From contig NC_083571.1 of the NCBI RefSeq assembly GCF_027579695.1, positions 47,156,890-47,220,889 of the forward strand: a stretch of DNA of 64,000 nucleotides, read 5' to 3'. A program made the position numbers and the translations under genes. The stretch is from Neoarius graeffei. Lineage: Eukaryota; Chordata; Actinopteri; Siluriformes; Ariidae. Positions within the stretch are counted from its first letter, which is position 1, and each line of letters begins with the position of its first letter. Below are positions 41,727 to 51,926 of the stretch, one piece after another. The notes under the pieces were generated by a model that was not told the origin of the DNA, ran no database searches, and was given only the letters and a program-made list of their open reading frames with translations.

Positions 41727-41999
41727 ATGGGGGTAAAGTTGAGAAAATAAGTTGAGGGGGAAAAAAGTCAGGAGATACTTTTCCGGATACGACCCCAGCT
41801 AGCATGTATATAGTGGACCACTGGTGGCTTTTGGACGGCAAGCCGTCGGTGGTATGCCAGCCGTGGTCCGAAGTCGGGCCGCTGCCTAGCACAAATCACA
41901 GCTCGGGGCGTGAGTGGCTTTTGGTTGGCGCCCCGCGATGGTGCGCGAGGATTCGAATCCACTGCGCAAGACAGTGGCGGCTCGCCATCCTTGGACCGC

Positions 42000-42061
42000 T
42001 GAAGGACCGCTACCCATAGACGACAACGGACGGAAGAACCAGCCACAACTTAATAGGACTA
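42000..42061 (+). promoter_or_regulatory. likely noncoding first exon and donor of the element's transcript
   Basis: AATAGGACTAG|GTAAGTACA at 42050-42070 is a strong donor just inside the GC-rich left end. The next good acceptor before the transposase ATG is TTTTCCCTTTACAG (ends 44111). The exon start is a guess. Confidence 0.45.
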
Positions 42062-42439
42062 GGTAAGTACACCATCTTCTTATCTCTTCTAAAATTATCA
42101 TATACAAAAACTATAGTAAACGTAATGCTAGCCTACACTTCAAAACTTCGTGAACTGTTGTGGTATGACGTTTCTGACAGCAAGACAGAGACAAACTCAT
42201 TCATTAGGACTCGTTCAGAAAACGGACATGATGGCTTACCAATTTGACATAATTAGCCAACGAAGGATAAATAAAGTAGCCTACATATCACCCTCGTATA
42301 TGCACCTGGGGTGAAGTGTTTTTATTCACATATGAGAAAGGGGGGAAATTACTTTGGCTATCCGAAAGTGTACTCGCCTGTATTAAGACACCCTCTGCCC
42401 CTTGGCTGTGCCTAGAAATTCTATCCATGAAACTTTACT

Positions 42440-43200
42440 TAATTACACTAAACTTCACCTCAATAATGGTAACCTCTACCTCAGTAACTCTCCTTTACCT
42501 CAGTAAAGGCTAAACTTTACCTCATTATTGCTAACCTTTATGAAATAACACTTTTTTTGCCTCAGTAACACTAACATTTACCTCAGTAATGCTGTGTTAT
42601 CTTAATGCTAACTTTTATTTAATAACACTAATTTTTACCTCAGTAACACTAACCTTTACTCAATAACACCATTTACCTCAGTAATGCTAAGTGTTATCTT
42701 AATGCTAACCTTTATTTAATAACACTAATTTTTACCTCAGTAACACTAACCTTTACTCAATAACACCAACATTTACCTCAGTAATGCTTAATAATGCTAA
42801 CCTTTATTTAATAACACTAACTTTTACCTCAGTAACACTAACCTTTACTCAATAACACCAACATTTACCTCAGTAATGCTTAATAATGCTAACCTTTATT
42901 TAATAACACTAACTTTTACCTCAGTAACACTAACCTTTACTCAATAACACCAACATTTACCTCAGTAATGCTAAGTGTTATCTTAATAATGCTAACCTTT
43001 ATTTAATAACACTAACTTTTACCTCAGTAACACTAACCTTTACTCAATAACACCAACATTTACCTCAGTAATGCTAAGTGTTATCTTAATAATGCTAACC
43101 TTTATTTAATAACACTAATTTTTACCTCAGTAACACTAACCTTTACTCAATAACACCAACATTTACCTCAGTAACGCTAATCTCTAATTTATTAACACTA
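42440..43200 (+). repeat. AT-rich minisatellite in the transposon's 5' intron
   Basis: About six higher-order units of 92-103 bp (starts of AACCTTTACT at 42651, 42748, 42840, 42932, 43035 and 43138). Each is built from TAACACTAACNTTTACCTCAG-like submotifs of about 20-25 bp. Confidence 0.92.
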
Positions 43201-43992
43201 AACTTACTAATTCTTCATTACCCTAACTGACAATCAGTTTTGCATGTAGATTGATGTAGCCTTTGCTAGGCAAACCTGTCCGACTTTTTAAAAATGAAGG
43301 CAACTTTATTGGTTAATAGATGACAGATGGGGTTTAACATTTGTCCTGTGACAAAAAAAAAAGTTTCAGGTCAGCACAGCAACTTTCCTCGCCTTGGCTG
43401 TCCATGGTTGTTAGCCTAGCTATCATAGCTATCGCCCCGATATTGTTTTGTTTCTGGAGTTCATGTCTGCATCCGCTGGTGTTTTGAGGCAGCTACTGCA
43501 ACTGATGTGTAGACAACATCGGGGTTCCCGCGGGGTCTTAAAAACCCTTAAAACATTGAATTGAAGCGTTTGGAAATGATACAAATGCCAGCCAGTGTCA
43601 GTGTATTGCCAGCAGTGATTTGTTCTACAGGCTACTAGACGTGAACGAGTATAAAATTATAAAGAAGGAAGAACAGGACTAGGCATGTAAACCTGTTCAC
43701 TTTACCACAGAAATTTTAAGGAATAATAGGGCTGTGACTTTACTCACTCCTTACACCAACTCTTCTTCAATGTCGTGCACCGAAATATCACAGTATCACA
43801 GTATCAATATTTCAGGTAGGCCTTCTTCTACCGGCAGTTATGCAGTAAGCTGTAACCAAAACACGACATATGTATTTGACAGAATTTAAAATATACGCCA
43901 CTCAACATGATCCCAAATGCTGATTCACATATTTAATGTTTATGAACGTAGTAAAAAGAAACGTATAAAAAACATTTTGTGAACCTAGGTGA

Positions 43993-44008
43993 TGAGAGAG
44001 AGAGAGAG

Positions 44009-44051
<43 letters not shown>
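43993..44051 (+). repeat. (GA)n microsatellite
   Basis: A GA run with a GTGTGTGTGA interruption, just upstream of the putative acceptor. Confidence 0.95.
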
Positions 44052-44054
<3 letters not shown>

Positions 44055-44180
44055 TTGATGCAGCTTTGTAATAAGACAGATGGTGATATGTTGTCTCTTT
44101 TCCCTTTACAGGTCACCAAGAGTACAAGTCTGTAAGGTAATTTGGGGTAATTTAAGGTAATAGGCAACACTTGTGGCGCA

Positions 44181-46268
44181 ATGTCTAGTTACTGGAGTAA
44201 GAGAAGAAGGATTGCTAAAGGCGTTGAATCAGACTTACTGAGTATAGGCCTAACTTCTTCAGCAGAGTGTGGGGGGGAAGGGGTGTCATATGAAGTGACT
44301 GAGGTCCAATTTACTCATGGGGGCAGTGGGGTAGAACCCCTACCAGGACATAGTGCCCATTCAGGACAGAGCAGTGGTGGAGTTAGTGAGCAGGTCCATT
44401 CAGGACAGAGCAGTGGTGGAGTGAGTGAGCAGGTCCATTCAGGACAGAGCAGTGGTGGAGTGAGTGAGGATGAACAGTCCAGTGAACATGCACATGACAG
44501 TGATGGCAGTGAGGAAATCTGTTCTTCAGGCGAAGACACACGAAGTCACCTTGCTCAATGGGCAGTTAGGAGAAGGATAAGCCATGCTGCTTTGGCAGAT
44601 TTATTATCTTTTCTCTCTGGAAAATTGCATGGCTTGCCAAAAAATCCTAGAACGTTACTAAAAACAAAAACCACGTATCATGTTAAAAATATTTCAGGCG
44701 GTAGCTACTATCATTTTGGCTTCGATCATGGCATTTCCTCTCATCTTGCTAACAAAAAAACTCCTTTGACTTGCCCGTCTTTAACAATCCAAGTGAACAT
44801 AGATGGCCTGCCCCTCTATAAAAGCTCAAATGCACAGTTCTGGCCTATTTTAGGGCTCATTGAGTGTTTTGAGAATCGGGTACAGACAAACAGGGAGCCA
44901 TTTGTTATCGGGATCTACTTTGGAAATCAGAAACCTACAACACTAGAGTTTCTAGATGAGTTTGTCAGTGACGCACGTGTTCTTGAGAGAGATGGCTTTT
45001 TTTACCAGGGTGCTTCTATCGCTATAGCATTGTCAGCAGTGGTCTGTGACGCGCCTGCACGGGCATTTATCCGAAGGTCAAAGGGACACACTGGGTTCTA
45101 CAGTTGTCACAAATGCCATCAAAAGGGAGTGACATACCAAGGAAGAATGACCTTTCCACAATCAGATGCACCACCTAGACTGGACAGTGAAACATTTGAT
45201 GAGTTTAGTGATGAGCAGCATTTCACAGGATTTAGTCCATTCAATCTTTTGTCAGTTGGAATAGTCACACAGTTTCCTCATGACTATATGCATGTGGTGT
45301 GCTTAGGGGTAGTGCGGAAACTGTTATACTTCTGGATGAGGAAGCCATTGCACACTCGAGTAGGTACAGCTGTCGTGCAGGAGGTGTCAACTACGCTTTT
45401 GGGTTATCGCTCATATTTCCCCATTGAATTCAACCGGAAGCCCCGAACTCTTACTGATTTTGAGAGGTGGAAAGCTACTGAGCTTCGCTCATTCCTGCTA
45501 TACACTGGGCCAGCTTGCTTAAAGGGCAGAGTACCAGCAGCAATTTACAACAACTTCATGTTGCTGTCTGTGGCCATGACCATTTTACTTAGTGTATCTT
45601 TAGTGGGAGATTATGCTGACTATGCACACAGTCTACTCTTGGCATTTGTGAAACACTGCAACCAACTGTATGGTAGGGAGTACATTGGGTACAATATGCA
45701 TGCCTTACTCCACCTCAGTGAGGAAACAAAGACATATGGAGCGTTAGACAACGTATCCTGCTTCCCTTTCGAAAATTTCCTCGGCCAGCTAAAAACAACG
45801 ATCCGGAAACCCAACAAGCCCCTAGAGCAGGTCATTCGTCGCTTGTCTGAAAAAAGGTTTAAGTCCAGTGAGTGTCTAAGTATCGAGTCAGGCCTAACAA
45901 TGGAACATTACAGTGGCCCTGTACCACCGCATCTTACTGCCATAAAACAATTTAAAAGAATGCATGTTCAGAGGGTCATCATTCAGGTCTCAACAAGTGA
46001 CAGTTGTGTGGAGTTAGCGGGGGGAAGGATAGTGGTCATCGAAAACATCATAGTTGACAACAAGGCAGAAGTGCACATAGTGTTTAGGTCCTTCTCAAAG
46101 CTCTGCAACCTCTTTGACTACCCACTCGAGTCATCTGAAGTTGGCATCTACCATCTGTCTGCCCTGACACCTCAACTGCATCACACTCTAGCTGCACACA
46201 TAGAGAGAAAATATGTCCTCCTTCCAGTTAAGGATGGCTTTGCTGGGCTACCAATGTTGCATCAGTAG
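44181..46268 (+). CDS. CMC/EnSpm-like DDE transposase, 695 aa, open
   Basis: It would cut and paste the surrounding element by recognising its termini in the nucleus. From ATG 44181 there are 695 codons without a stop. An N-terminal low-complexity part holds three 13-residue repeats (HSGQSSGGVSEQV, about residues 60-96) and acidic stretches. A conserved core follows: VNIDGLPLYKSSNAQFWPIL (D208), a CHKCH knuckle (309-313), PHDYMHVVCLGVVRKLLYFW (D368) and CFPFENFLGQLKTTIRKP (E531). D208, D368 and E531 are my candidates for the DDE triad, by position relative to the CMC superfamily. The ATG lies 70 bp after acceptor 44111, so the gene probably has a 5' noncoding exon. No homology search was possible; the family call rests on motif memory. 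Confidence 0.8.
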   Translation: MSSYWSKRRRIAKGVESDLLSIGLTSSAECGGEGVSYEVTEVQFTHGGSGVEPLPGHSAHSGQSSGGVSEQVHSGQSSGGVSEQVHSGQSSGGVSEDEQSSEHAHDSDGSEEICSSGEDTRSHLAQWAVRRRISHAALADLLSFLSGKLHGLPKNPRTLLKTKTTYHVKNISGGSYYHFGFDHGISSHLANKKTPLTCPSLTIQVNIDGLPLYKSSNAQFWPILGLIECFENRVQTNREPFVIGIYFGNQKPTTLEFLDEFVSDARVLERDGFFYQGASIAIALSAVVCDAPARAFIRRSKGHTGFYSCHKCHQKGVTYQGRMTFPQSDAPPRLDSETFDEFSDEQHFTGFSPFNLLSVGIVTQFPHDYMHVVCLGVVRKLLYFWMRKPLHTRVGTAVVQEVSTTLLGYRSYFPIEFNRKPRTLTDFERWKATELRSFLLYTGPACLKGRVPAAIYNNFMLLSVAMTILLSVSLVGDYADYAHSLLLAFVKHCNQLYGREYIGYNMHALLHLSEETKTYGALDNVSCFPFENFLGQLKTTIRKPNKPLEQVIRRLSEKRFKSSECLSIESGLTMEHYSGPVPPHLTAIKQFKRMHVQRVIIQVSTSDSCVELAGGRIVVIENIIVDNKAEVHIVFRSFSKLCNLFDYPLESSEVGIYHLSALTPQLHHTLAAHIERKYVLLPVKDGFAGLPMLHQ
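44358..44468 (+). repeat. 39-bp in-frame repeat, 3 copies, in the transposase
   Basis: CATTCAGGACAGAGCAGTGG plus TGGAGTGAGTGAGCAGGTC repeats with one change, giving HSGQSSGGVSEQV twice and HSGQSSGGVSEDE. Length polymorphism is likely. Confidence 0.95.
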
Positions 46269-46432
46269 GATTGCTGTTTTTTATGTTGGTGTAAGTGTTC
46301 AAATCACAATTTTGTTCAGGTGATATATTCAGGTTTCCCATCTCATTTAGGAAATGCTGTAGCTGTAGGAATTGATTATTAAGATGCCTTGGCAAGCCCA
46401 CTTAAGTGTAACTATTTCTTCTTTCCACAGAA

Positions 46433-49400
46433 ATGTATGTAGTCGTTTCCTTCCCCGCGGAGGGCTTGTTTTTTGTGGTGCCTGTTTCATGGCTCATAGA
46501 AGATAAATGTTACTGGCCTCCCTTTAAAACGCTGGACAAGGTAAAAAAGGCTGCCCTACAAAATGAAACCCCTGACCCCAACTGTTGGACACTTCATCCA
46601 GTTGAGGTGCTTAAAGTTAAAGGTAGGCTCGGTTGTATATTTAAATATCATAATGCAGCATTTTGATTTGGGAGAAAAGGAGACAATTCAACTATTTGAA
46701 TTTTGCTTGTTTGCTATTGTTGTTTTTTTTTATGTAGACACATACGAAAAGGCCCACGGCCACTACCTTAAAGCAAAAAGAGGAGAGAAGCTGGAGACAG
46801 ATGAGGAGACCATGAAAAGAAAAAGAAAGTAAGATAATATTTGCATCATACTAGTCACTAATATATAAACGGAGGTAGATTGACTGAATTACATAGGCAG
46901 CATGTGATCTAGACAGGTTTGACACAATCTACCAAATAACTACTGAATTACTCACAAATATATCAAAATATGCATAAATACTAAGTCAACTCAATCAATA
47001 CAACAATATTTAATTACTTTGGTCATTTATGCAAAGAAATACTGGATTCGCTTAGATGAGGTAACAAACTTCTCAAAGTGAGGTGAAGCTGAATCATGGC
47101 ATCTGAGTAAGTAACCAACATGCAGGAGCCTCCTGTTCGATGTTCTACATCGACCTACATTGCTTGGCAGACATGAGGTCATATCCTGAAACTAGAAATA
47201 TCAACATAAGGGTTCTTCAAGGTGAACTAAGGAAGTGGACTATATAAACCAGACTACTTGTCTGGTTTATATAGCCTTTTCTATATTTTTAACTAACCAT
47301 AAATATTATTTGTACCAATGATATTGCCCTCAATGTCACATTCTTTAACATTTTGTAACTTGTGTAATCTCTAGGCCAAACATGAAATTCATCCAATCCA
47401 GTGATGAAGAAGATGACTGTCCCTATTTCCCTCCGGCTCCAAAAATTCGGCGACTGCCAGAGAAAATTTCTGTACCAAATTCAGGTTAGTGATATCTCTG
47501 AAAAGAAATTCATTTTTCTTTTTTCATGGTCTCTGTTACTTTTCATTTTGTGTTGCCTTACATTTCATGCACCCACATTTGACACAGGCCTTCTGCATAT
47601 CTTCCTTTGTTTATTTTTTATGTTGCATTTGGACAAAAGTGTCAGTTAAGTATAATGTCATACCATTGCATTAAGTGTAATCATAGCATTGTATCATCTC
47701 ACTAAACACGCCTTTTCATTTCCAATCTATTCAACAGAGTTTACCAGCCAGGCACCACAGGTCCCAACCACCACCACCCTGCCTCTACCACCACCACCAC
47801 AACTCCCACCTCTACCACCACTACCACAGCGCCCACCCAGCCATGAAGGTAAATGGGTCAATGTCATTGTCAATGTCATTTATTGTGCTCTGATATCAGG
47901 TGGTACAACCACTGCTAATGCTCATAAATTAATTAGTAATTGGTAATTAATGTACTGCAATGAATATGCTTCTTAGATAACCATTTAAGTCTTAATCTCT
48001 TTCAAACAGTGTACAGTCAATCACACAGAACCCCTTCAGTCACCAGGACCAGTACTTACCCTGCAGGTAATATTGGCCACTGTGTACTTAGTACCATGAT
48101 TTGGTCTTCTAATTACCATGAATACTTGTATATCATGTGTCTTTTCACTCTGTTTGCAGTGTTGTCCAACCAAGCAGCCAGTCCCCCGTTGGAAACCTCA
48201 CATCTTTTTCTGACATCCAGCCATGGAGGTATACACATAATACATTGGCTATTGAAAGTCTACACCCCTGTTCAAATGCCAGGTGTTCATGATGTAAAAA
48301 AAAATGACAAAAAGAAACTATTTAACGTCATGACAACCTGGCACTTGAACAGGGGTATGTAAACTCATATGTGTACTTTATAAGTTGCTTTGGGTTTGGA
48401 CAAAAGTTGCAGTAATAATCAATAATAATCATTGCCGTAATAATCTCACTAAACACGCCTTTTCATTTCCAATCTGTTCAACAGAGTTTACCAGTCAGGC
48501 ACCACAGCTCCCCACCACCACCACCCTGCCTCTACCACCACCATCACCTCTACCCCACTACCACAGCTTCCAACGATTTCACCTCTGCCAGCACCACCAC
48601 AGCTTCCATCGAAGTCACCTCTTTTTCGAACATCCAGCCATGGAGGTAAATACATAATACAGTGCCTATTGAAAATGTACACACCCCTGTTCAAATGCCA
48701 GGTGTTCATGATGTAAAAAAATGACAAAAAAGACAAACTATTTTATGTCATGAACCTGGCATTTGAACAGGGGTATGTAAACTTATCATACCCACTGTAC
48801 ACTGCGTTCCAAATTATTATGCAAATGACATTTTTCACTGGTTTTCCTAAATAAATAACTAGATGACAAGTCATCATAATTTTCAAGTCATCAACCGTTA
48901 GAGTACAAAGCAAATATTTTTGAACGAACCTTCCAATGATAACGGTATTTTTTTAAAAATTGAAAAACTGAAAATGCACTGTTCCAAATTATTATGCAAA
49001 GCAGAGTTTCAAAAGATGTTGTTCTTGTAAAGAACTGAAAATGGCCATTTATGAAATTTGAAGCATTAGCAGGTGATAATTACTGGAATCAAAACCTAGT
49101 TCAATCAAAAAATCTTACAGTTCAAGTTGCATTACTGGATGTGTAGCTGATTCAGAGCGCACACAGGTTTGTGCAGATAAAGGCACATTAAGAAAGGTTC
49201 TTCCAGATAAATACATCAGAACAAGAGAGTAAATGATAAAATACTATTACAAAGCAACAAACAAGTCACTTTTGAAGCTGCGAGTTGGAAGGTTCGTTCA
49301 AAAACATTTGCTTTGTACTCTAACGGTTGATGACTTGGAAAATTATGATGACTTGTCATTTAGTTATTTATTTTGGAAAACCAGTGAAAAATGTCATTTG

Positions 49401-51237
49401 CATAATAATTTGGAACGCAGTGTATGTTACTTTGTTCATTTTCTATTTTATAAGTTGCTTTGGACAAAAGTATCAGTTAAGTATAATGCCATAACATTGC
49501 ATTCAGTGTAATCATAGCATTGCACCATCTCACTATTTACTAACCACATTTCCAATCTGTTCAACAGAGTTTACCAGTCAGGCACAGCATCATCCATCAA
49601 ATCAGCAAATCAGCATCCAGCAAGGTAGAACTGAATTATCATTTATCTGGCACCAATATTAAAGGAGAAGCAGACTAACCCCTTAAGATACAGCCCCTGT
49701 TATAAATTAGCCGAATAGCTGTTACCAGAATGGCAATGACCAAGTCGTAATGTATTACTAAAGGCCCTATGCACTGTCATAGTGGTACTATGGCAGTAAA
49801 GTTTTTCTCAGTGGCCATTACAGCGTCCTTTTGGTGGAATGGCGTGTGTTAAGGGGCTATGAAAGTTTTGTTTGTTTTTGTTTTGAGAAGGACACCATAC
49901 ATTCATCCTTGATTATGTCAATTTCAGTAACACAGATGTTGATGTTGTTTGAAAGCTGTGTAAATGGAAACTAAGTATCTGAATTACTACATCTATACTT
50001 ATACCATTTCTAATCTGTTGTCTTTGATTCATAGATTTTTGCAGACTTGTTCTGCAGCACCTCCGGACGATTGAGGAGGAGGTTAAGGAGGTTAAGCAGC
50101 AGGTGGCTGCAAATACGGCCATTCTGCAGAAGCTAGGGGGTGCTGGTGTGGCAGACCTTTGCCTCGTCCAGGAAACCAACATGCCCCTCAGTAACCTGGA
50201 GGAACTGGAGGAGCTGGAGAGGCAGCTTGGGTCTGACATTGACCTGAAAAACCAACTGGTAAGTCTGGATTTTAAAATGTTGCAATATGAATTTGAAGGC
50301 ATACAAGTCTTAACCTGGCTCTCGTGATGAATGTTGCTCTGAGTTGCTCCACAAACATTTATCTGTAACTATGGCCGTAGTGCGCTTAGCCAAAGTTCCT
50401 GTCTTAAAATACCGTCTCTGGCTTAGCTCTCCAAATGTTTTATTAAAAATCCTTGCACATGATTGGAAAAAACACTTGTCTGACAATTAAAGCACTACTG
50501 TAACATTTCTGGAAATGAGTTCATTTTACACCTCTCCCTGAATTAAGTGATTTGTCGACAATGTTACATCTATGAAAGCCCTGCGAGCCGGATTGGTCAG
50601 GCTGCCTGGGTAAATCTGAAAATCCACCCAGATCCACGAGTAGCTCATAAAGCTGTGCGGAAACACACAGATCTGGCGAGAGCCAGGTGATCCCACTGAT
50701 TGAGCATTGCTAAAATTGATCCCATTCCCAAGGGGAGCGATGTGTGCACAATAAATCATATATATGTTTCCAATTTTCAACATCATACCCACTGTATTTG
50801 AAGGTTACAGATGAACTATCAAACAGCTAAGATGTTTGACTGAATGTTATGCCATTGTAATTTTGGTCTTTGTATTCCAGGTGAACATACTTGCTGTTTT
50901 GGGGGGGAAAACCACCAAAGACGCGGTGAAGAGGATGTTGGGCCGTATTTTGAGGAAGTCCCTGGCGCTTCAAATAAATTGGACTGGTGCTGGAGGAAAG
51001 GTGGCGTTCAAGTCTTTACACCTGAAGAATGTGTTACACAGTAAGCTAAAAAAAAAAACTTTTTTTTTTTACATTTTGAATCATTATTGTGAAGTATTTA
51101 CAACCCCTGGCAAAAGCATTTTTTTCTTACTTACTCCTTGTTTTACAACAGGAGCTGTTAGGAGAGTGGTGCACACAGCAACAGAAGAGGACCTGCAAAA
51201 AGAAGTTGCGAAGTACCTAAAGGGGGCAGCTGACTGA
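46433..51237 (+). CDS. DUF4806-type second protein of the EnSpm-like element (10-11 exons, about 384 aa)
   Basis: Exons with matching phases: 46433-46622, 46738-46828, 47375-47484, 47738-47848, 48010-48066, 48160-48228, 49568-49624, 50035-50258, 50881-51040 and 51152-51237 (stop TGA). The N-terminus MYVVVSFPAEGLFFVVPVSW and LIEDKCYWPPFK, with TYEKAHGHYLKAKR, is the opening common to DUF4806 proteins. The middle (130-228) is Pro/Thr/Ser-rich and encoded by duplicated exons. A heptad-rich helix (HLRTIEEEVKEVKQQVAANT, 237-256) precedes the DUF4806 region (about 279-365: NLEELEELERQL, VLGGKTTKDAVKRMLGRIL, WTGAGGKVAFKSLHLKNVLH). By analogy with CACTA elements it may bind subterminal repeats; the function is unproven. 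Exon 48485-48645 is left out because it breaks the frame. Confidence 0.75.
48241..48370. mobile_element. palindromic MITE copy 1 in an intron
   Basis: CACCCCTGTTCAAATGCCAG is inverted at the right (CTGGCACTTGAACAGGGGTA). The ends lie near TA. A second copy is at 48660-48797; each follows the same exon end (CATCCAGCCATGGAG|GT). Confidence 0.75.
48485..48645 (+). pseudogene. duplicated proline-rich exon with a frameshift (cassette exon)
   Basis: It starts like exon 47738 (acceptor TTCAACAG, then AGTTTACCAGTCAGGCACCA) and ends like exon 48160 (CATCCAGCCATGGAG|GTA). Relative to the parent exons, one A is missing at CTACCCCACTACC (about 48554-48562). It therefore enters in phase 1 and leaves in phase 0, while the next exon (49568) needs phase 1. 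Inclusion would shift the downstream frame; skipping restores it. Confidence 0.75.
48660..48797. mobile_element. palindromic MITE copy 2, TA-flanked
   Basis: CAGTGCCTATTGAAAATGTA on the left and the inverse CAGTGGGTATGATAAG at the right, with TA on both sides (48658-48659 and 48798-48799). The right TA is shared with the next element. Confidence 0.8.
48800..49422. mobile_element. Tc1/mariner-type non-autonomous element with long inverted repeats
   Basis: CACTGCGTTCCAAATTATTA at the left is inverted at the right end, and the arms match for about 135 bp (to GAACGAACCTTCCAA). TA flanks both ends. There is no transposase inside, only AT-rich filler. Confidence 0.88.
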
Positions 51238-51770
51238 GAGGGAGGGAGAAAAGACAGGCAGAAAAAAGTGGGCAATGGGGAGATGGGGAATATTTGAACT
51301 AGTCATTTTATATTTATGTATTATATATTTATTATAAATTGTTCATATTTATTTATTTACTTACTTCAAACTGTAAAAACATAAAAAAAATATTGAACCT
51401 GGCTGATCTTTAAATGTGACGTTGTTAATTGTTATTTATTTGTTTGTTTATTTATTTATTTAAAACCGTAGACACATTGAAAAAACAAAAATGTATTGAA
51501 CCTGGCTGGTCTTTAAATGTGATATTATAAATTATTAATTGTTATTTAGTTATTTATTTATTCATATAAAAACCGTTAACACATTAAAAATAAACAAAAT
51601 GTATTGAACCTTATGTGTGGTCAGTCTGTGGGATAATATGTTTACATGTATACATTTATATTAATTTAGATCATAAATTGAATTCCATTTATATTCATTT
51701 TAATGCCTTGTTTGAATTATATGGCCATAATAAGGCTATTAAAAAAATGGTGGGTAACAATCGGTAAAAA

Positions 51771-51926
51771 GGCGGCCCTTTATCTGAAACCGCTTTTGAG
51801 CCGCCGGCGGACCGCCAAAGAACCGATGAGCAAAACGCCAGTGGGCCACTGGTGGGAGCCGCCGTTGGACCGACAACTCTGCCACTGGTGGGCCGCCAGT
51901 GGGCCACTGACCTATTGCTATCTGGG
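51771..51926 (-). repeat. right terminal and subterminal repeats of the EnSpm-like element
   Basis: CCGCCAGTGGGCCACTG, GCCACTGGTGGG and related CCACTGGYGG units recur five times or so in 150 bp. They mirror the left end (41812-41850). Confidence 0.75.

Follow-up and report, generated by a model that had tools for sequence, protein, structure and literature searches.

Closest described systems and the element at this locus

Plant CACTA/En-Spm transposons, which carry two genes on one strand, are among the closest described systems for comparison. In PMC8195511, Spm is reported to use alternative splicing of one transcript and TnpA is reported to bind DNA, and a passage of PMC4158355 gives the strict CACTA definition as CACTA ends with a 3-bp target-site duplication. 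The wider CMC (CACTA-Mirage-Chapaev)/CMCT clade is described as having duplications of 2-5 bp and, in most cases, 5'-CA..TG-3' ends, and Harbinger (Nuwa) elements combine a transposase with a separate DNA-binding protein of the Myb/SANT type (PMC12730594). Here we describe a transposon within a 64-kb window, that is, the whole stretch of DNA analysed (C3:47156890-47220889 in the 2.34-Gb genome of Neoarius graeffei, 38 contigs), which is probably an autonomous cut-and-paste CMC element with CCCAGNTAGCA ends, 2-bp duplications and a DUF4806 protein serving as the end-binding partner of its transposase. Its main features are as follows.

41794..51926, + strand: whole element, 10,133 bp; both ends recur elsewhere in the genome
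41792-41793 and 51927-51928: target-site duplication AC, 2 bp, immediately outside both ends
41794..41828, + strand: left terminal inverted repeat, made of an 11-bp end, a 7-bp unmatched spacer and a 17-bp inner block
51892..51926, - strand: right terminal inverted repeat, mirroring the left one
44181..46268, + strand: gene 1, DDE-type transposase, single exon, 695 codons, no stop within 44181-46265
46433..51237, + strand: gene 2, predicted splice model with GT/AG junctions, from ATG at 46433 to stop at 51235-51237

The element shares with plant CACTA/En-Spm the two genes on one strand, a second protein that would, by analogy with the Spm passages in PMC8195511, be expected to bind inside the ends, and an acceptor before each gene that is compatible with the alternative splicing reported there. 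However, the plant elements have CACTA...TAGTG ends and a 3-bp duplication, whereas this one has CCCAG...CTGGG and 2 bp; moreover, gene 1 has no match to Transposase_21 (the CACTA TnpD type) and gene 2 none to Transposase_24 (the TnpA type) up to E 1, the latter carrying DUF4806 instead. An ordinary 3-bp CACTA element is ruled out by the CCCAG ends and by 2-bp duplications in 15 of 15 complete copies. Between the second D and the E the transposase carries C(2)C and H(3)H, as in the CMC/CMCT clade (H(3-4)H), and the 2-bp duplication falls inside the clade's range; its 5'-CC..GG-3' ends depart from the usual ones, which is not disqualifying given the wording 'in most cases'. The element thus belongs to the CMC clade taken broadly and is not a canonical CACTA, an assignment made by motifs and duplication length, with the D/D/E residues chosen by motif. 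The label 'EnSpm/CACTA-like' in the original prediction, which was made from this DNA alone, is not supported if read strictly. Harbinger (Nuwa) likewise has a transposase plus a DNA-binding protein, but it belongs to another superfamily with 3-bp duplications, and its partner is Myb/SANT rather than DUF4806. Zebrafish CMC-EnSpm elements can be compared by abundance only, CMC being abundant in that teleost (4.69% of the genome in a table of PMC4746887).

Ends, target-site duplications and copies

The left end at 41794 is CCCAGCTAGCA and the right end, read as reverse complement from 51926, is CCCAGATAGCA, with 10 of 11 bases identical; the inner block AGTGGNCCACTGGYGGC lies at an offset of 18 bp in each end and is identical at 15 of 17 positions. 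When the two 300-bp ends were aligned locally, the score was 47, barely above the maximum of 45 among 200 shuffles, so that the two-end alignment alone is too weak, and the ends are taken as proven because genomic copies share them. With the first 300 bp as query, the genome search listed 21 rows, which fall at 20 places (the C6 copy being split in two pieces), and with the last 300 bp it listed 18 places; merged, the two lists define 21 places, of which 17 have both ends, three the left only and one, on C7, the right only. Complete CCCAG...CTGGG ends are present in 15 of the 17 two-ended copies, and in every one of these the 2 bp on the left equal those on the right (TA, AC, AT, TG, GA, TG, AA, TT, GT, GA, TC, AA, AC, TT, TA), for which the chance of a match is 1 in 16 per copy. 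No fixed sequence is seen among these duplications, and the match extends to 3 bp in only one of the 15 (C15, in a run of T). Since the copies at C1:114.94 and C1:115.2 Mb (both GA) have longer flanks in common and represent one insertion within a segmental duplication, this pair is counted once, leaving 14 independent insertions. Of the other two copies, the one on C28 has its final two right-end bases changed, with a CA beyond that matches the CA of its left flank, and the one on C6 has lost the outer left-end bases, its flanks not being readable with confidence.

These results bear out the claim of a near-intact 10.1-kb transposon at 41794-51926 with matching ends and AC flanks: the proposed query of the same genome for full-length copies with identical ends and 2-3 bp duplications returned them with 2 bp throughout, and the possibility that the two termini come from unrelated repeats finds no support at the 17 places where both occur together. 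When the right-hand 1.5 kb is compared with that of the window copy, 0 to 8 differences separate 12 of the 17 other copies from it (the C15 copy shows 0 differences over 1,500 bases), 12 to 22 separate three, and the copies on C25 and C28 have 73 and 89, respectively. The mean pairwise difference in this part is 0.66% among the 16 closer copies, window included. Such near-identity of most copies indicates recent multiplication of the family, and the element very probably moves, or recently moved, by cut and paste.

The exact pattern of the first 34 bases occurs at 18 genome places including the window, all of them among those found by the left 300-bp search; the idea of numerous short derivatives that share precisely this left end was therefore rejected. 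A 31-base end pattern allowing up to 3 mismatches gave 57 genome matches, against 7 for the reversed control.

The transposase gene

Gene 1 is preceded by a splice acceptor and contains a tandem repeat in its N-terminal part.

44104-44111: splice acceptor CTTTACAG before gene 1
44357..44468, + strand: 39-bp (13-aa) tandem repeat in the N-terminal part of the transposase

The candidate catalytic residues, assigned by motif, are the D in NIDG (206-209), the D in CDAPAR (289-294) and the E in FPFEN (528-532), with CHKC (309-312) and HALLH (507-511) sitting between the last two; the corresponding motifs of the sister protein are CERC and HNLCH. The order NIDGLPLYKSS, CDAPAR, CxxC, HxxxH, FPFEN is the same in the focal and sister proteins, which are 37% identical. 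A search for the transposase among solved structures gave no match up to E 1.

The 695-codon frame, said from the start to be open, has indeed no internal stop. A genome search with the protein, in which the best 64 of 689 candidates were scored, lists 19 places with close transposases at 96-100% identity and 44 sister transposases at 38-42%, 38 of which have no stop inside the match. In at least 12 copies a single open frame spans the whole of the close transposase (for ten of them the match falls into two rows at the 13-aa repeat), and the match of another copy, at C5:109.9, lacks the first 28 residues and is otherwise nearly full, so the expectation that readable autonomous copies would be uncommon fails for the transposase here. 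The stop-to-stop frames of the 12 open copies range from 692 to 757 aa, mostly in 13-aa steps; therefore, the repeat number varies between copies that are otherwise about 100% identical. A transposase fragment at C24:58.85 Mb is accompanied by neither element end in the 300-bp end searches.

The DUF4806 gene and its association with the transposase

The predicted exons of gene 2, all on the + strand, and its domain are listed below.

46433-46622: exon A
46738-46828: exon B
47375-47484: exon C
47738-47848: exon D
48010-48066: exon E
48160-48228: exon F
48485..48645, + strand: exon G, optional, 161 bp long in this copy, against 162 bp in C7 and C28
49568-49624: exon H
50035-50258: exon I
50881-51040: exon J
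51152-51237: exon K
50172..51024, + strand: DUF4806 domain, encoded by exons I and J (residues 275-351 in the 384-aa model)

With exon G left out, the predicted splicing yields an open frame of 384 aa, in agreement with the second gene of about 384 residues first proposed. The wholeness of gene 2 was judged in three copies (window, C7 and C28): the 161 bp of exon G, set against 162 bp in the other two, makes the window copy near-intact and not certainly intact, and the C28 gene has an additional frame break in exon I. The translations of exons D, G and H start alike, so the middle of the gene probably grew by internal duplication. Pfam assigns DUF4806 (PF16064) to the protein with 45.1 bits against a cut-off of 25 (E 1.3e-11), and this domain is described in a passage of PMC11075544 as a BEN-type DNA-binding subtype. 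The solved-structure search with the gene-2 protein returned five matches at E 0.11 or worse, none of which is named as a BEN protein.

A search with exon I (a 78-aa match; best 107 of 2370 candidates scored) lists 17 places and an 18th in two pieces (C28), and all of the listed places bear this element's ends, the C7 copy the right end only. The genes are thus not found bounded by different ends among these matches, and the suggestion that the two travel together holds within the family. A stray match to exon D alone was also seen on C28, about 28 kb from the C28 copy. A Pfam search of the genome for DUF4806 gave 0 matches and gave 0 likewise in 14 control genomes, so it is uninformative. In the published passages on DUF4806, drawn from a literature in which most subscription journals lie outside the search, no tie to a CMC transposon is mentioned.

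The association extends to a sister family, represented by L059, in which a DUF4806 gene follows the transposase on the same strand; its first exon is 37% identical to that of gene 2 and its DUF4806 exon 41% identical. A search with the L059 DUF4806 exon, with the best 150 of 316 candidates scored, lists 147 matches. Pairing was examined for 63 of the 77 transposase rows, the others being 13 short ones that cover the N-terminal part or the repeat and a second one for the C18 copy; a transposase counted as paired if a DUF4806 exon lay on its strand no more than 12 kb downstream. Such an exon lies downstream of 27 of the 44 listed sister transposases, at 1.9-4.4 kb, and of 15 of the 19 listed close ones; none lies on the opposite strand within 15 kb of any listed transposase, and the chance expectation is about 0.0004 per transposase. 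The gene pair is therefore a trait of the lineage. Many of the 147 DUF4806 matches have no listed transposase partner.

L059 and three sister copies on C18 and C26 have an additional same-strand DUF4806 exon 1.9-3.2 kb upstream of the transposase, and L059 carries on its left side a tandem array with 18 copies of GCCCANNTGGGC. Where the boundaries of the sister family (L059, L060) were sought, the alignment of the two breaks at apparent nested insertions.

Palindromes inside the ends and the wider group

One palindromic motif recurs at mirror positions in the two ends.

41812..41822: palindrome AGTGGNCCACT, 18 bp from the left end
51898..51908: palindrome AGTGGNCCACT, 18 bp from the right end
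51840..51850: third palindrome AGTGGNCCACT, in the inner part of the right end

The motif is seen nowhere else in the 64-kb window. The outer 120 bp of the two ends contain CCACTGG or its complement 5 times and the inside of the element 0 times; in 20,000 shuffles the mean was 0.05, and no shuffle reached 5. Scanning the genome for a looser pattern, CCCAGNTAGCA-N10-GGNCC with any last base but T, gave 65 exact matches, against 0 for the reversed control; 35 of the 65 are ends of this family and 30 belong to others. Among the latter type, three short elements (L061, L062 and L063, of 399, 466 and 838 bp) have two facing CCCAGATAGCA ends each with AA on both sides, and they are non-autonomous relatives of other families. 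Since short relatives share the ends and the 2-bp flanks, both features mark a group wider than this family.

Transcript layout

The signals that would organize transcription are as follows.

42061..42068, + strand: splice-donor-like AG|GTAAGT at the end of a putative 5' leader exon
46269..46430, + strand: intergenic stretch of 162 bp, ending in a pyrimidine-rich acceptor
51589..51594, + strand: AATAAA, candidate shared poly(A) signal 3' of gene 2

The 15-base context of the donor is found in 18 of the 20 left-end loci examined, and splice acceptors lie just 5' of both ATGs in the focal and the sister element alike. Between the two genes, none of the seven poly(A) hexamers sought is present in the focal element, nor is any of the four sought in the sister. 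Judged from these sequence signals, the layout is compatible with a single transcript spliced to gene 1 or gene 2, and we lean slightly towards both proteins coming from one such spliced transcript.

Proposed mechanism and alternative explanations

In the mechanism we propose, the DDE transposase would cut at the 11-bp ends, and the DUF4806 protein, as a DNA-binding partner of the BEN type, would bind the palindromes 18 bp inside each end and either bring the ends together or mark them for the transposase, a role that TnpA has in Spm. One promoter in the left end would drive a common leader exon alternatively spliced to both genes, and one poly(A) site near the right end would serve both proteins. 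We judge it likely that transposition requires, or is helped by, the DUF4806 protein as a DNA-binding partner. The TnpA/TnpD-like system envisaged in the original prediction is matched in anatomy by the two genes, the acceptors, the missing intergenic poly(A) signals and the end palindromes; by analogy, it is plausible only.

Several observations weigh against the proposal. Pfam matches on the transposase are only below the cut-off (DUF5483 at E 0.00086 and DUF4218 at E 0.0085), and the sister transposase has no match at all. DUF4218 is a domain that accompanies plant CACTA transposases. In the window copy the gene-2 frame breaks if exon G is used, so that this exon must be skipped. No downstream DUF4806 match appears among the top-scored candidates for 17 of the 44 sister and 4 of the 19 close transposases, although both lists hold top-scored candidates only, so the 17 unpaired cases are not evidence of absence. 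In other CCCAG-end families the palindrome is not significant, with 26 of 66 flanking pairs complementary against 19.8 when shuffled (three base pairs beside the GGNCC core; 321 of 5000 shuffles as high), which weakens the idea of a general dimer site. Finally, the BEN-like fold of DUF4806 rests on a statement in print (PMC11075544).

The same transposon could also be explained with a transposase that suffices alone and a DUF4806 protein acting as a regulator of the element's own promoter or as an anti-silencing chromatin factor, which we regard as unlikely without discounting it. The GC-rich left end (0.62 over the first 150 bp) may hold promoter and palindrome both; however, the palindromes occupy mirror positions in both ends, and the right end, remote from the putative leader exon, has two of them, an arrangement better suited to end recognition than to promoter control. 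Still less probable is that gene 2 was captured from the host and rides along as a passenger without serving the element. Annotated genes with DUF4806 are reported from zebrafish, Hydra and a beetle, yet the two genes recur in this order and on one strand at far above the chance rate among the listed sister transposases, and both the first exon and the DUF4806 exon are related across families; pairing in 27 of 44 led to the rejection of gene 2 as an isolated capture. As for a chance composite of unrelated repeat ends or a segmental duplication, the shared flanks of the two C1 copies are what a duplication would leave, but all other two-ended places have differing flanks, and the matching 2-bp flanks in 15 of 15 complete copies refute a composite or unrelated ends, leaving this explanation next to no probability. 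The reading of a CMC transposon with a DUF4806 end-binding partner is thus the one we prefer.

Genomic distribution and internal repeats

When the segmental pair is counted once, there are 20 places, and 7 pairs of them are no more than 4 Mb apart; 4 of 20,000 trials reached this number in a test that kept each insertion's distance to the chromosome end and dealt the 58 ends at random, which is an approximation. The corresponding shares of trials for 1 and 2 Mb are 0.003 and 0.0027, the distance limits having been picked after the data were seen. In addition, 10 of the 20 places lie within 10 Mb of a chromosome end (p 0.013), and clusters at C1:115-119 Mb, C23:5.1-6.0 Mb and C5:107.8-109.9 Mb go beyond the expectation given that distance. 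Local hopping and regional preference are two readings of this clustering.

Two repeats lie within the introns of the window copy.

48798..49424, strand not assigned: nested palindromic element, about 627 bp, TA at both ends, in the intron between gene-2 exons G and H
42448..43180, + strand: minisatellite with units of about 103 bp, in the 5' intron

The nested element is also present in the C7 copy, and at least a large part of it in the C28 copy; being common to other copies, its insertion probably predates the spread of the family. In the window copy the minisatellite takes up the 5' intron. It is absent from the C28 copy (C28:3810730-3833592), in which about 195 bp of the 5' part is present twice, about 4 kb apart.

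Implications for DUF4806 and animal CMC transposons

DUF4806, a domain named for its unknown function, gains a home and a testable job beside a CMC transposase, with which it travels in several families of one genome. Moreover, a young family with many near-identical full-length copies and exact ends makes a two-protein mechanism in animal CMC elements directly testable. We tentatively entertain, at somewhat less than even chances, the joint reading that there is a widespread animal CMC branch, with CCCAGNTAGCA ends and 2-bp duplications, combining a DDE transposase with a dedicated BEN-type DUF4806 end-binder, both made from one alternatively spliced transcript, and that this branch is an animal counterpart of TnpD/TnpA with an unrelated DNA-binding domain. 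If this is true, the DUF4806 expansions reported for zebrafish chromosome 4, Hydra and a beetle might have a simple explanation as transposon genes, and many lineage-specific DUF4806 'genes' of fish, Hydra and insects would be transposon parts or derivatives.

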